This document shows positions 649-4,368 of a stretch of 5,745 bases of DNA, in pieces. The DNA is from Patescibacteria group bacterium. GTDB taxonomy: Bacteria > Patescibacteria > Microgenomatia > Daviesbacterales > UBA10151. The notes below the pieces were generated by a model, which was given only the letters and a program-made list of their open reading frames with translations, searched no databases and was not told the origin of the DNA. Every line of letters begins with the position of its first letter. Position 1 is the stretch's first letter. The stretch covers positions 1 through 5,745 of the forward strand of contig JAMDBX010000060.1 of the NCBI GenBank assembly GCA_023487645.1. Direction: 5' to 3'. The translations under genes were made by a program, and so were the position numbers.

Positions 649-870
649 AAAAGATATTTAATAAAAGCTGGTGGAAAAACAAAGAAGGTTAATCAGGCTC
701 ATGTTGATACCCTAACCAAACCTTTCCAGAGAATTGCTGAGATTGTAGAGTACGCCAACAGTTCGAAAGTAGAGGAAGTTTATCAGAAAACGCCTGAAAT
801 ATTCGAACTACTGGAAAAGGTTAATATAGCAACCCAAACACCCTTATTTTTACCTGCTTATTCCGAATTG
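649..870 (+). pseudogene. Probable decayed gene end without a start codon
   Basis: After TAA at 646-648 this frame stays open and, from 664 on, reads like a real protein: KAGGKTKKVNQAHVDTL, then a helix-rich part with FQRIAEIVEYANSSKVEEV and TPEIFELLEKVNIATQTP. It has no ATG or GTG start. It runs on through the antisense of the tRNA-Ser and stops at 967-969, so the natural C-terminus is also lost. The codons near 649-692 overlap another frame (564-692, ending FFFEKVKKIFNKSWWKN) that may hold the other side of a frameshift. I do not recognise the family. A recombinase or integrase tail beside a tRNA is possible but unproven. The boundary at 870 is simply the tRNA edge. Confidence 0.4.
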
Positions 871-957
871 CGGAGAGGGTGGGATTCGAACCCACGGTCG
901 TCTTACGGCGACAGATCGTTAGCACCGATCCGCACTAGGCCACTATGCGACCTCTCC
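871..957 (-). tRNA. tRNA-Ser(GCT)
   Basis: The 87-nt minus-strand gene folds as a class II tRNA. It has a fully Watson-Crick acceptor stem GGAGAGG/CCTCTCC, a D-arm with GCA/TGC, anticodon stem GATCG/CGATC, loop GTGCTAA with anticodon GCT (complement of 921-923), a long variable arm of about 18 nt, and T-arm GTGGG-TTCGAAT-CCCAC. It reads AGC and AGU serine codons. The discriminator is G and the next bases are CAA, so CCA is not encoded and must be added after transcription. No usable -10 box lies directly upstream. The best promoter is about 115 bp away, beyond a duplicated copy of its own first 14 bp, so the transcript probably has a long structured leader. Confidence 0.95.
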
Positions 958-1055
958 TTATATTACTAAGAGGTCCATAGCTTGCATTAGATAGTTACTA
1001 CACCGACAAAGTCGGTGGAACTATCGCAAGGTTCTCCGCCGCAGGCGGAGGTTCT
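958..1055. mobile_element. 98-bp hairpin-rich insert flanked by a 14-bp duplication of the tRNA-Ser 5' end
   Basis: The segment lies between two identical copies of TATGCGACCTCTCC (944-957 and 1056-1069), the pattern left by an insertion with target-site duplication. It has no coding capacity. It contains a long imperfect hairpin at 981-1030 with paired arms CTTGC/GCAAG, GATAGTT/AACTATC and CACCGAC/GTCGGTG around an AAA loop. A second hairpin follows at 1034-1050, CTCCGCC-GCA-GGCGGAG. AGAGGTCCATAG (969-980) is an inverted copy of the tRNA 5' end lacking one base, and can pair with 1056-1067 to close a three-way junction. I see no terminal inverted repeats of its own. It could be a MITE-like element or the product of a local replication error. 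Confidence 0.5.
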
Positions 1056-1069
1056 TATGCGACCTCTCC
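1056..1069 (-). repeat. Detached copy of the first 14 nt of tRNA-Ser(GCT)
   Basis: On the minus strand these bases read GGAGAGGTCGCATA, identical to the start of the tRNA gene (957-944). The acceptor strand GGAGAGG differs from that of the window's other tRNA-Ser, so the copy derives from this tRNA. The remaining tRNA parts do not follow it. Confidence 0.8.
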
Positions 1070-1078
1070 AGTGTGCAT

Positions 1079-1107
1079 ATTTTACCAGAACATATGGTTT
1101 GTATCCA
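1079..1107 (-). promoter_or_regulatory. Probable tRNA-Ser(GCT) promoter
   Basis: Read on the minus strand, TAAAAT (1084-1079) is a 5/6 match to the -10 consensus, preceded by TGG as an extended -10. TGGATA (1107-1102) is a 4/6 -35 match with a 17-bp spacer. The predicted start near 1072 lies 3 nt before the detached GGAGAGG copy. This is the same short distance seen between promoter and tRNA for both tRNA-Arg genes here, so I infer this was the original tRNA promoter. Confidence 0.6.
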
Positions 1108-1178: not shown

Positions 1179-1913
1179 ATGACTGAGGAAAGTGTTGACT
1201 CTAGAGAAAAATCACCACAGCCTCGAAAAAGAAATATTATTCTTTATTTTGTTCGCCATGGTGCCGCTGGTTACTCTAGTCGTCAGGACATGGCGGGATA
1301 CTTGACAGAAACAGGCCGTGAACAGGCCAGGGAAGCAGCGAAAACTCTTTATCAAGAATTACCAGAAGGAGCAGTCGTTGAGTTTCTTTCAAGTGACCTC
1401 AATAGAGCGGAAGAAACTACTGAGGAGATGAAAAAAGAGACGGAGAGATTAAATGATGATCCTCAAAATTCAAAGAAAGTATTTATTCATCATGGTAAGG
1501 TTATCAAAGATGAAGGGGAAGAAAGAGAGAAGATAAAAACTTACGCGCGGCTTGCAATATCAGATGATCATACTCGCGAGTTTTTTAGCTTGTCTAAGGA
1601 TGAATCTGGCAAAGAACAAGATGCAGTTAAGGTTTGGTTAGATAACCCGAACCAAAATGTAATAGAAATGGAGGATAATTTCCGCAGTTTCCTTCGTCAT
1701 TTTAATAGATTTAGCCGGCATGTTTCTCCTGGCCCGGATATCTACATTGTGTCAACTGTGCACGGTGGGGCTTCTGATGTGGCTATAGGAAGGTTTTTGG
1801 GTGAAAATGCGTTAGGAAGACTAATAAATTGCGAAGCTTTTAAGATTTCTTTGTTGACTGATGGTCAGACAACCCTAACTTTTAGGGATGAAACCAAAAC
1901 TATATCCCTATAA
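1179..1913 (+). CDS. Histidine phosphatase (phosphoglycerate mutase-like)
   Basis: This is a 244-residue cytoplasmic protein of the histidine phosphatase superfamily. The signature LYFVRHGAAG places the nucleophilic His at residue 27 with Arg26. LTETGREQA follows at 42-50, SSDLNRAEET gives the second phosphate-binding Arg (76), and STVHGG gives the second catalytic His (195). The acid residue is probably one of the Glu near 112-115. About 20 residues precede the first strand. The stretch between Arg76 and His195 is long, charged and unlike that of small SixA-type enzymes, so the substrate cannot be read from the sequence; sugar phosphate, nucleotide or phosphohistidine are all open. The first ATG is chosen because the -10 box lies just upstream. 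The stop codon abuts the next ATG, so the gene leads a coupled operon that also holds a phosphohistidine swivelling domain. Confidence 0.9.
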   Translation: MTEESVDSREKSPQPRKRNIILYFVRHGAAGYSSRQDMAGYLTETGREQAREAAKTLYQELPEGAVVEFLSSDLNRAEETTEEMKKETERLNDDPQNSKKVFIHHGKVIKDEGEEREKIKTYARLAISDDHTREFFSLSKDESGKEQDAVKVWLDNPNQNVIEMEDNFRSFLRHFNRFSRHVSPGPDIYIVSTVHGGASDVAIGRFLGENALGRLINCEAFKISLLTDGQTTLTFRDETKTISL

Positions 1914-2975
1914 ATGAAAAATGGCGACCCTGTTATTGAAAACTACCTTCGAGCTATTGAAAAGCTAATTGAGCGGGGAGGAGAAAAAAAATTTTGGCCG
2001 TTTGCTCCCGGTCAGGTAGACTCTTATTTTATCGATGTATTTTCAGTTAATCTTTTTGAGAAATTTAAACGTAATCGGGAAAAATTTAAAGATGCCTTTG
2101 CTACCCTTAACACCACAGTTATACGGTGGTTTGGTCTGCCTTATGTAATCCTTGGCTTAAAACTGGCGAACAATTATGAGGGCTATTGTGCTTCCCAAGA
2201 GGAGATGACAGATTATATTCGGGCAGTGGATGAGGTATTAAGTAAAAAAGTCTATTCTGATCCTTTCTGTCTGGATGGACAAAACAAAACAATGTTGGAT
2301 CAGGAAGCAAAAGATAAATTTGAAAAAATCCATCGTTTTGACGCTAGGGATAAAAAGGCCATAAATATTTTTAGTTCTATTTTGCAATCCTACCTTTGGT
2401 CGATTGAATTTGATGCCTTTACTTATGGAGCATCTTGGCATGGACCATACACGGTTGACTCTAAAAAAATGATTTGCAAGACCTACAGTGACTTAAATGC
2501 GCAGATATGGAAAATACAAAACCTTCCGGATAGAGTGGATATATTTTATCTTTTTGAAGGAGATATTGATTGGAGAGTAGGCTTGATGGAACTTGCTGTC
2601 TTTCAACCAGATCTTTGGGATAGATTGGATTCAATAGGGATTTTGGTAGACAATAAAACTGTTGATAATTTAGACAATGTTCAAAAGTTGTCGGAGCAAT
2701 TTTCTCAAGTTCGGGATCAACAAGTAAGTTTGATTGATGGGTTGCCGCCTGAAGAAATTATTAAAAAGGGTATAGAAATTTATTATTTTATGTTCAGAAA
2801 CTTTTTTGAGTTCTACCAAGAAAGTTCAAAACCGCCAGAAGTATGTTACCAGCGAATCAAAGATGATGGCCTAAAGTATTGGAATGCTTTTAAACAGGAA
2901 TCAGTTAAGGAATTAATGCCTGGAAAAGATTTTTTCAAAAGACTCTATGATCCAAGCAATAACTTTACCGGATGA
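1914..2975 (+). CDS. Unrecognised 353-residue soluble protein, partner of a swivelling domain
   Basis: I do not recognise a family. The protein has no signal peptide or membrane segment. It looks mostly helical and rich in aromatic residues, with patches such as KKFWPFAPGQVDSYFIDVF (about 25-43), a central SWHGPYTVDSKK followed by YSDLNAQIWK, FEGDIDWRVGLMEL, and a helical C-terminal third with many Phe and Tyr. The start abuts the upstream stop codon with no Shine-Dalgarno site, so it is probably translated by coupling. Its own stop overlaps the start of the swivelling-domain gene by 4 bp. In PEP synthase and rifampicin phosphotransferase, a mobile phosphohistidine domain shuttles between two catalytic domains in the same chain. 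By position this protein may supply a catalytic or substrate-binding partner for the separate mobile domain. That is inference from gene order; no ATP-grasp or TIM-barrel motif is seen. Confidence 0.85.
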   Translation: MKNGDPVIENYLRAIEKLIERGGEKKFWPFAPGQVDSYFIDVFSVNLFEKFKRNREKFKDAFATLNTTVIRWFGLPYVILGLKLANNYEGYCASQEEMTDYIRAVDEVLSKKVYSDPFCLDGQNKTMLDQEAKDKFEKIHRFDARDKKAINIFSSILQSYLWSIEFDAFTYGASWHGPYTVDSKKMICKTYSDLNAQIWKIQNLPDRVDIFYLFEGDIDWRVGLMELAVFQPDLWDRLDSIGILVDNKTVDNLDNVQKLSEQFSQVRDQQVSLIDGLPPEEIIKKGIEIYYFMFRNFFEFYQESSKPPEVCYQRIKDDGLKYWNAFKQESVKELMPGKDFFKRLYDPSNNFTG

Positions 2976-3343
2976 ATAAATTTTTGCTTCACAACAAAGA
3001 TGAAAAAAAGAGGGTCGTTAAAGGCGTTGTTGCGTCAAAAGGTTCCGCTCAAGGTAGTGTGAGAGTTATTACTGACCTTAAGGAGGTAAGTAAATTTATA
3101 GAGAGGGAAGTACTAGTATCAGAGTACACAAATCCGTCGTATGTTAAAGCTATGATTAAAGCTTCGGCAGTAGTCACGGATTTTGGAGGAATAACTTCCC
3201 ATGCAGCAATAATTTCCCGTGAGTTAGGTATACCCTGTATAGTTAGTGCTAAAAATGCTACAAAGATCTTTAAAAATGGTGATGTTGTAGAAGTTGATGC
3301 AAATCAAGGAATAGTAAGTATAATAAAAAGGGGTGATGAATGA
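2972..3343 (+). CDS. Stand-alone PEP-utilising enzyme mobile domain (phosphohistidine swivelling domain)
   Basis: The 123-residue protein consists almost only of the PEP-utilisers mobile domain. KGVVASKGSAQGSVRVI (17-33) forms the first strands. VTDFGGITSHAAIISRELG (68-86) is the signature loop with the phosphorylatable His at residue 77. GIPCIV and then GDVVEVDANQGIVSII form the closing strands. In PPDK, PEP synthase and PTS enzyme I this domain carries phosphate on His between active sites. Here neither an ATP-grasp domain nor a PEP/pyruvate TIM barrel is attached, so the partner must be another protein, most simply the 353-residue neighbour. The start overlaps the upstream stop as ATGA, without a Shine-Dalgarno site. 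The domain call is firm; what phosphorylates it is unknown. Confidence 0.92.
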   Translation: MNKFLLHNKDEKKRVVKGVVASKGSAQGSVRVITDLKEVSKFIEREVLVSEYTNPSYVKAMIKASAVVTDFGGITSHAAIISRELGIPCIVSAKNATKIFKNGDVVEVDANQGIVSIIKRGDE

Positions 3344-3543
3344 TGAATAATATTTTAGGAACACCAAATGGTGGTTTAATCCTGTTACTGGTGGTTGTTT
3401 GGGAATTTATCTGGAAGGGGATTGCTTTGTGGCATAGTGCCCGAAACAGTCAAAGAAACTGGTTTATAGCCATGTTGATTTTAAATACCCTAGGTATTTT
3501 GCCCATTGTTTATCTGAGATTTTTCCAGAAGAAACAAGGTTAA
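3340..3543 (+). CDS. DUF5652-like small membrane protein
   Basis: This is a 67-residue integral membrane protein with two predicted helices: about residues 11-31 (GGLILLLVVVWEFIWKGIAL) and 41-62 (from WFIAMLILNTLGILPIVYL). The pattern VWKGIALW-x-SARNxQxxWFI and NTLGILPIxYLxFF matches DUF5652, a family I know from CPR bacteria and some archaea, distantly like the PLDc_N two-helix module. The function is unknown. The start overlaps the preceding stop as ATGA, and a second in-frame ATG follows directly at 3343. AAGGGGTGA at 3328-3336 is the best Shine-Dalgarno-like site in the operon and suits either ATG. Being last in the operon, it may anchor the soluble phosphotransfer proteins at the membrane, or may only share their promoter. 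Confidence 0.85.
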   Translation: MMNNILGTPNGGLILLLVVVWEFIWKGIALWHSARNSQRNWFIAMLILNTLGILPIVYLRFFQKKQG

Positions 3544-3564: not shown

Positions 3565-4149
3565 ATGCCCACAGTTTTTGAAAAACCTATTCCTGACGAA
3601 CAAAATCTTCCGGTCCCCGAAGAAAAGCACCATGTTGTCTCAACCGAAGATAGTGACCCGGTAAAAACCCATCTTTCCTGGATTGCTCCGGCCCGGCCTT
3701 ACCGCAAAAAAGACCGCTCTTATTACACCACCATTGCCACTTTGGTGATTTTACTCATTTTAATTGCCCTGCTGGCCCGGGAAATTTTGCTCATTGGAGT
3801 ACTTTTGGCCTTGGGCTTTGTAGCTTATGTTTTAGGCTTTGTTCCCCCTGAGGATATTGAGTATAAAATTTCCGATCAAGGAGTAACCATTGGCAATCAT
3901 TTCTATTTTTGGGGGGATTTGGACAGTTTTTGGCTTTCAGAAAAAGAGGGCCACGGGCTGATGCATATTGTCACCCATTACCATTTTCCGGCCCAGTTGA
4001 TTTTGGTGTTAGGTAAGGATAATGAGGCCGAGGTCAAAAAAGAGGTGGCTCATTATTTGCCTTTCCATGAAATTCCTCCCAAAAGTTTGATAGACAGCTG
4101 GGCTGAAAGTTTGCAAAAACATTTTCCTCTGGAAAATCCCCACCGGTAA
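3565..4149 (+). CDS. Conserved-looking two-helix membrane protein of unknown function
   Basis: The 194-residue protein has a hydrophilic, Pro- and acid-rich N-terminus (1-35), then WIAPARPYRKKDRSYY as a basic juxtamembrane segment. Two closely spaced membrane helices follow at about 55-71 and 74-93. The C-terminal soluble domain of about 100 residues begins EYKISDQGVTIGNHFYFWGD and goes on with a His-rich VTHYHF. The positive-inside rule suggests that the N-terminus and the C-terminal domain both face the cytoplasm. The soluble part resembles the small PH-like domains that follow membrane pairs in DUF5673-type proteins, but this is tentative. I believe close relatives occur in Microgenomates genomes. 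Its codons are somewhat more GC-rich than those of the operon before it, and it has its own -10 box, so I treat it as a separate unit. The tRNA pair follows 52 bp later. Confidence 0.85.
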   Translation: MPTVFEKPIPDEQNLPVPEEKHHVVSTEDSDPVKTHLSWIAPARPYRKKDRSYYTTIATLVILLILIALLAREILLIGVLLALGFVAYVLGFVPPEDIEYKISDQGVTIGNHFYFWGDLDSFWLSEKEGHGLMHIVTHYHFPAQLILVLGKDNEAEVKKEVAHYLPFHEIPPKSLIDSWAESLQKHFPLENPHR

Positions 4150-4281: not shown

Positions 4282-4368
4282 GGTGGGGTCGCATAGTGGC
4301 CGAGTGCGCTGGTTTCGAAAACCGGTGTCGCCGAAAGGCGACCGTGAGTTCGAATCTCACCCCCACCG
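4282..4368 (+). tRNA. tRNA-Ser(CGA)
   Basis: This is an 87-nt class II tRNA with acceptor stem GGTGGGG/CCCCACC and anticodon stem CTGGT/ACCGG. The loop TTCGAAA has anticodon CGA at 4316-4318. The variable arm GTCGCC-GAAA-GGCGAC is capped by a GNRA tetraloop, and the T-arm is GTGAG-TTCGAAT-CTCAC. It reads UCG. The D-arm region is nearly identical to that of tRNA-Ser(GCT) in this window, as expected for seryl-tRNA synthetase recognition. The discriminator is G and CCA is not encoded. Confidence 0.95.

Follow-up and report, generated by a model that had tools for sequence, protein, structure and literature searches.

Two small dispersed hairpin elements probably make up a composite insert at the start of a tRNA-Ser gene in a Patescibacteria genome

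The 98 bp lying between two copies of the 5' end of a tRNA-Ser(GCT) gene probably form a composite, made when two small hairpin elements of a dispersed, REP-like kind inserted at the beginning of that gene. The gene belongs to a stretch of 5,745 nucleotides from a Patescibacteria group bacterium, hereafter called the window; other loci and genomes carry L and G numbers. The window is a metagenome contig whose proteins have their matches in Ca. Daviesbacteria and other Microgenomates. A first-pass annotation of this DNA had proposed that a single 98-bp element inserted here, duplicated its target and left the tRNA whole. The repeat behind this proposal is exact: the 14-mer TATGCGACCTCTCC occurs at 944-957 and at 1056-1069, and 0 of 200 dinucleotide shuffles contained a match with 2 mismatches or fewer. 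It is the only direct pair found by the repeat search, and its spacing of 112 leaves 98 bp between the copies. The inner copy coincides with the 14 nt that open tRNA-Ser(GCT), and a third copy, with 2 mismatches, forms the 5' end of tRNA-Ser(CGA) at 4282. With T for a copy of the target edge and T' for its inverted copy, the parts of the locus are the following:

1079..1107, minus strand: outer promoter-like site, TGGATA-17-TAAAAT with TG before the second hexamer (pattern match; box and spacing in L008; block common to L009 and L048)
1056..1069, minus strand: outer target copy T, a decoy of the tRNA 5' end, GGAGAGGTCGCATA (repeat search)
1027..1057, minus strand: hairpin module A, TAAGAACCTCCGCCTGCGGCGGAGAACCTTG, its first two bases being the last two of T (fold, contexts, dispersal)
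987..1026, minus strand: hairpin module B, CGATAGTTCC-hairpin-GTAGTAACTATCTAA, adjoining the foot of A (dispersal and sequence)
968..981, minus strand: T', an imperfect inverted copy of T, plus strand AAGAGGTCCATAGC (leader fold, sequence)
958..967, minus strand: spacer from T' to the intact tRNA (sequence; spacers of about 10 nt in relatives)
944..957, minus strand: inner target copy T, the first 14 nt of the intact tRNA (ARAGORN, repeat search)
870..957, minus strand: tRNA-Ser(GCT) gene, intact (ARAGORN; Rfam tRNA, 49.6 bits)

Module A starts directly behind base 14 of the gene, and T ends in ATA. At the gathering score, Rfam finds tRNAs alone in the window, and within 800-1180 no match at E values up to 5 falls inside the leader (958-1069); a sub-threshold match to sX4 (E 0.054) covers 825-967, mostly tRNA. 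A known riboswitch, ribozyme or T-box was therefore rejected as an account of the leader.

We then asked whether relatives carry the same arrangement. A conserved neighbour of the tRNA (3565-4149) served to gather 17 loci, of which 15 contain tRNA-Ser(GCT); L007 and L012, without that tRNA, were left out of the count, so that 16 loci including the window were compared. In five of them (the window, L002, L004, L005 and L006) a leader opens with a copy of the tRNA 5' end, and in the other 11 the tRNA has no leader; in L001 and L014 the tRNA-Ser(GCT) itself differs in sequence. Two more leaders, in L048 and L049, were found by searching for the leader itself and for this reason do not enter its frequency. 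Locus L048 with a leader and L009 without one form a filled/empty pair, the upstream block being common to both. A search with the decoy pattern was positive in nine of the 45 family genomes, one of which (G038, L050) has no tRNA in the fetched stretch. A phylogeny of gain and loss (18 rows, 156 columns; L007 and L012 coded empty though without tRNA-Ser(GCT), L048 and L049 left out because they gave no protein) resolves little, 12 of its 15 inner branches being open; it says little on whether the empty state is ancestral, and no count was taken from it.

The 98-bp segment does recur elsewhere, but as two modules dispersed separately rather than as the single element first proposed. The short leaders (about 50-55 nt plus spacer) of L048, L049, L002, L005 and one of L004 fold alike, and a covariance model built from these five (R1) matches the window over 1017-1069 with 43.5 bits. 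R1 also matches places other than serine leaders, and these revealed what module A has as its core, TAAGAACC-hairpin-GAACCTTG. Searched for as AAGAACCN{5,35}GAACCTTG, the core has 47 matches in 23 of the 45 family genomes, and the reversed pattern has 3; with a leading T, 44 matches in 21 genomes remain, and the control gives 0. Scanned across the class with the leading T, the pattern has 117 matches in 31 of 281 genomes, 58 of them in two genomes (33 in G087, 25 in G251); with 9 control hits in the same 281 genomes, some single matches may be due to chance. The pattern of module B (CGATAGTTCC-hairpin-GTAGTAACTATCTAA) has 28 matches in 16 of the 45 family genomes and 0 in the control. Module B is absent from the short leaders of L048, L049 and L002 before tRNA-Ser(GCT): in these, CTTG is followed directly by AGCT, whereas in the window B stands between the two, so that B was apparently added to a leader that already had A. 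Solo copies of B near tRNAs are mostly in the opposite orientation, which fits a separate insertion event. Two modules thus seem to make up the 98 bp, with B set against the foot of A. On insertion and target duplication, with the tRNA left whole, the first-pass reading was supported: with leaderless loci among relatives and modules recurring elsewhere, neither of the genomic patterns that it had named as contrary to insertion, an arrangement common to all relatives or a segment confined to this locus, was found. One insertion confined to one tRNA, on the other hand, was rejected, as leaders and modules are both widespread.

The contexts of A and B often have a common order, T-hairpin-T'-spacer-T, that is, a copy of the target edge, the hairpin, the inverted copy, a spacer and the intact target. 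It is found at tRNA-Gln (L090, two units), tRNA-Thr (L164; L197, two units), tRNA-Ala (L154) and tRNA-Ser (L153, L196), and at the 3' ends of tRNA-Pro (L057), tRNA-Ala (L078) and tRNA-Phe (L088). Translated starts point to further, putative examples at the beginnings of rpsM (L160), rplK (L163), dnaK (L110), ndk (L097), valS (L122), fusA (L109) and tpiA (L062); L182 is a clean array. Measured by eye, the duplicate varies from about 8 to 30 nt, unlike in ordinary transposition.

To quantify this order we used 106 distinct A cores with TAAGAACC and 150 nt on both sides, comprising 43 of the 44 family matches (the core in L062 was dropped because its flank is too short), the window and 62 others, a sample of the class matches in which hit-rich genomes are represented by the first places listed. 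Related copies are not independent, so the statistics for both modules overstate certainty. In 25 of the 106 cores, against about 0.7 expected, a downstream copy of the left flank scores above the 99% level of a null of mismatched pairs, and some of these 25 stand in tandem arrays; the mirror test exceeds its 99% level in 6 (about 1 expected), five of these in arrays; 81 cores have no target copy above that level. Among the 86 solo cores, 18 are T-positive. The foot of the solo cores continues into T', with 3.33 against 2.18 Watson-Crick pairs in 8 positions (0 of 5000 shuffles). The 18 T-positive cores pair more strongly here (5.56 against 4.35; 0 of 3000 shuffles), and the pairing persists without the tRNA-Ser leaders; 46 T-negative cores pair more weakly, 13 of 3000 shuffles reaching their value. 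A test for inverted copies in a wider window gave no excess at the 99% level (1/48), so that the signal is confined to the foot, and the narrower inverted-copy tests (8/106; the 86 solo cores; the T-positive cores) were made after this wide one. In L165 and L198 a target copy is present and T' is not clear. Module B, read as TTAGATAGTT...AACTATCG in 26 copies (25 of the 28 matches and the window), behaves similarly: above the 99% level are 7 direct copies, 1 mirror and 5 T', and of 2000 shuffles 0, 63 and 0, respectively, reach the mean.

Forward-inverse-forward copies of this kind could also arise with no mobile element at all, if replication switched template at hairpin-prone sites without any transposase. 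The order T, T', T, the variable copy length and the stronger T' in T-positive cores would all fit such switching. However, the fixed feet of A and B recur in many genomes, which needs a donor, and the junction is a preferred one, since A precedes TAAG in 68 of the 86 solo A cores; we therefore hold this explanation to be improbable. For module B, TTA precedes the element by eye. From these sequences we infer that A and B would be mobile elements, and the comparison supports an insertion broader than one tRNA, apparently extending to other tRNA genes, RNase P RNA and protein-gene starts. The apex stems vary between copies, which is odd for recent transposition.

As to how the modules might enter, a tentative scheme combines one-ended joining, foldback synthesis and a template switch. 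One end of a hairpin strand would be joined 3' of AT(A) for module A or of TTA for module B; the other end would fold back and copy T into T'; synthesis would then switch back to the chromosome and recopy T. Joining 3' of a short target is what a Y1 HUH enzyme would be expected to do, and Y1_Tnp (PF01797) is found in 41 of 45 and in 8 of 8 genomes searched. This near-ubiquity means that the family does not discriminate element-bearing genomes, and a RAYT as the machine was set aside on that ground. G013 has A cores and no Y1 match, and one close pair was seen (G007:C1, core at 2465 and Y1 at 3397). More speculatively still in its reach, and held with no greater confidence than the scheme itself, A and B may exemplify a new insertion mode, in which unrelated hairpin families are joined by one end and leave forward-inverse-forward target copies. 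Such a mode would favour tRNA genes, RNase P RNA and gene starts, would keep the gene whole, and could recur at one site, building arrays that lengthen through target duplication in the manner of CRISPR arrays.

The placement of the elements is polar. A tRNA lies within 130 nt of 29 of the 106 A cores, and it is downstream in 27 of them, presenting its 5' end to the element in 17 and its 3' end in 10; in the other 2, both in one array, it lies upstream. In the family cores, window excluded, the proportion is 15 of 43; if placement were random, we would roughly expect about 1% of the genome to qualify, or more if only intergenic DNA is considered. RNase P is the enzyme expected to trim tRNA leaders. 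An RNase P RNA gene reaches the Rfam gathering score in L082, L194 and L222; the element lies within the matched stretch in L222 and just past its 3' end in the other two. A further hairpin module, in L217, lies at an RNase P RNA recognised by sequence likeness only, with no Rfam match. A raw count that includes weak cases places 12 of the 106 cores in frames open for at least 40 aa on both sides, with 13 open readings. Apparent in-frame copies of module A were noted in L167, L173 and L113 (comF-like, GTPase-like and a protein without assignment), and the translated reading of L150 gives a prepilin-like start.

Does the insert separate the tRNA from its promoter, as the first-pass annotation held? 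The site TGGATA-17-TAAAAT with TG (1107-1079, minus strand) is the only promoter-like site within 700-1300, although the pattern alone occurs no more often than by chance (shuffle mean 1.2). In L008, without an insert, the box TGGTAAAAT stands about as far from tRNA-Ser as the site in the window stands from the outer copy; the upstream block common to empty L009 and filled L048 has the same -10 region, and a -10-like box lies, by eye, shortly 5' of the tRNA in the 11 leaderless loci. Transcription of the tRNA would start at the outer promoter and first cross a leader of some 115 nt, which would have to be trimmed, presumably by RNase P.

The annotation had further suggested that the inverted copy pairs with the decoy and so spares the tRNA. 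The first half of this agrees with the predicted fold of the window leader, in which T', although imperfect, is paired to the outer copy; the energy of this fold is -49.1 kcal/mol, and shuffles average -27.6 (z -5.9). The second half fares less well. Short leaders are predicted to sequester the decoy before the tRNA is complete, and in nascent RNA the decoy is paired inside the leader with a probability of at least 0.80 in 8 of 12 leaders (0.39 in the window). In the complete window transcript, however, ViennaRNA places the decoy on the 3' strand of the tRNA at 0.98 and the native acceptor at 0.01. This swapped form exceeds 0.6 at equilibrium in 8 of 12 leaders (the window, L049, L005, L004, L006, L025, L197, whose folded stretch contained two units, and L164), and sequestration as a general protection of the tRNA was rejected on this account; the native acceptor is favoured in L048, L002 and L153, and neither form in L014. 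The folding model leaves out tertiary structure, proteins and early cutting by RNase P. A protective role of the inverted copy is weakly supported, and inverted copies also occur at protein-gene starts (L160, L163), so that T' may be a by-product of insertion.

That folding predicts two competing forms invites another interpretation, namely that serine tRNAs have a conserved regulatory or processing leader in which the decoy strand and the hairpin act as a selected switch or tRNA mimic, whatever their origin. Several observations agree with it. The same decoy, GGAGAGGTCGCAT, stands unchanged in the leaders of several genomes, even where the downstream tRNA differs (L006, second leader), and in the L014 leader of tRNA-Ser(CGA) both P1 strands match that tRNA instead. 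L153, outside the sampled order, has 13 of 15 spacer bases as in L049 (by eye). In seven short leaders 96.4% of cells are paired and 4 pairs have double changes, each reached by 0 of 500 shuffles; however, L014 alone supplies all four double changes, the tested structure was derived from the same sequences, and the excess of pair types is not significant (61 of 500 shuffles). The tRNA does without the leader in most of the loci compared, and the same architecture stands at unrelated genes and at tRNA 3' ends. We consider this interpretation unlikely, if somewhat less so than template switching without an element. Under the preferred reading of an inserted composite, the tRNA-Ser leaders look retained and partly conserved and were possibly domesticated; alternatively, gene conversion with the tRNA may account for these features.

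A decayed tandem tRNA duplicate, of which only the acceptor strands are left around a hairpin, would also give a leader that opens with an acceptor strand and contains the complementary one, and L004 does have two tandem units before tRNA-Ser(GGA). Yet the interior belongs to a dispersed hairpin family with fixed foot sequences that is found at non-tRNA genes as well, and no remnant of an anticodon or T-arm was seen in the leaders inspected, so we give this origin very little credence. Insertion of the two modules thus stays the preferred reading.

Among known systems, A and B fit best under small palindromic mobile DNA, set apart by the unusual forward-inverse-forward order of their target copies. 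Elements of the IS200/IS605 type insert 3' of a short fixed sequence and do not duplicate it; A and B likewise have preferred bases before them, but target copies are present. A classical MITE differs in that the target duplication of A and B is not of fixed length. With the REP elements (GTAG and CGTC families) and their RAYTs, A and B share short imperfect hairpins that are dispersed, sometimes paired or arrayed and sometimes in coding genes, and Y1_Tnp is common in these genomes. In contrast, the feet are TAAG/CTTG for A and TTAG/ATCG for B, with no GTAG or CGTC foot by inspection, the apex stems vary freely, and target copies are accompanied by an inverted one; in the main text of a paper on GTAG and CGTC REPs, the word 'duplication' is absent (PMC3733652). 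The sections of PMC2229807 on such elements describe Rickettsia palindromic elements of 105-146 bp in intergenic DNA, in frame in protein genes, and in tmRNA and M1 RNA, with target duplication marked '?' in a table. The occurrence of cores in open frames and at RNase P RNA recalls them in behaviour only; the modules are about 20-55 nt long and their target copies are seen. The same sections give YPAL/RU-2 of Yersinia as about 168 bp long, lying at or near dyad symmetry, with target duplications of 3 to 26 bp; these are variable like those of A and B, and no inverted target copy is mentioned there for YPAL (PMC2229807). Dispersed repetitive hairpin-forming elements, also within genes without frameshift, are described in sponge mitochondria (PMC2800124); they are organellar, and the corresponding passages do not describe the target-copy pattern. 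A search of the open-access literature found no report of the forward-inverse-forward pattern.

Patescibacteria have small genomes, yet the hairpins occur within or beside genes that rank among the most constrained, and these genes seem to stay whole. Their signature offers a testable fingerprint of an insertion route unlike cut-and-paste transposition, and the tRNA leaders raise a question of maturation, that is, how a transcript with a competing copy of the acceptor strand is folded and trimmed.

Several minor observations concern the tRNA loci. In L184 (547-760, plus strand) at least three A cores follow one another with CCACTAGTGTGG links before tRNA-Arg(CCG), then T' and T, part of the array reading N. 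The leaders of tRNA-Ser(CGA) and tRNA-Arg(CCG) in L005 (10835 and 11019) have a decoy that resembles a tRNA other than the one now downstream, and there the tRNA or the leader may have been exchanged. L024 (1501, plus strand) has a bare decoy, GGAGAGGTCGCATAAG, with no hairpin, between a promoter-like box and an apparent tRNA-Ser(TGA) with a different 5' end; it is perhaps the remnant of a lost insert. Three proteins are encoded head to tail at 1179-3343 (plus strand) of the window: one with a histidine-phosphatase domain, one of 353 aa that has no match in Pfam, and a free-standing swivelling domain of a PEP utiliser. Together they may be the parts of a split phosphotransfer system; used as a query, the phosphatase returned two relatives besides itself, and a scan of viral contigs returned none. 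Finally, a similar trailer, TTCG-TCGCC...GCGA-CTTCGGCGGA...TCCGC...AAGGAGA, lies 3' of tRNA-Ser(GCT) in L002, L003, L004 and L009 and is perhaps a further hairpin module.
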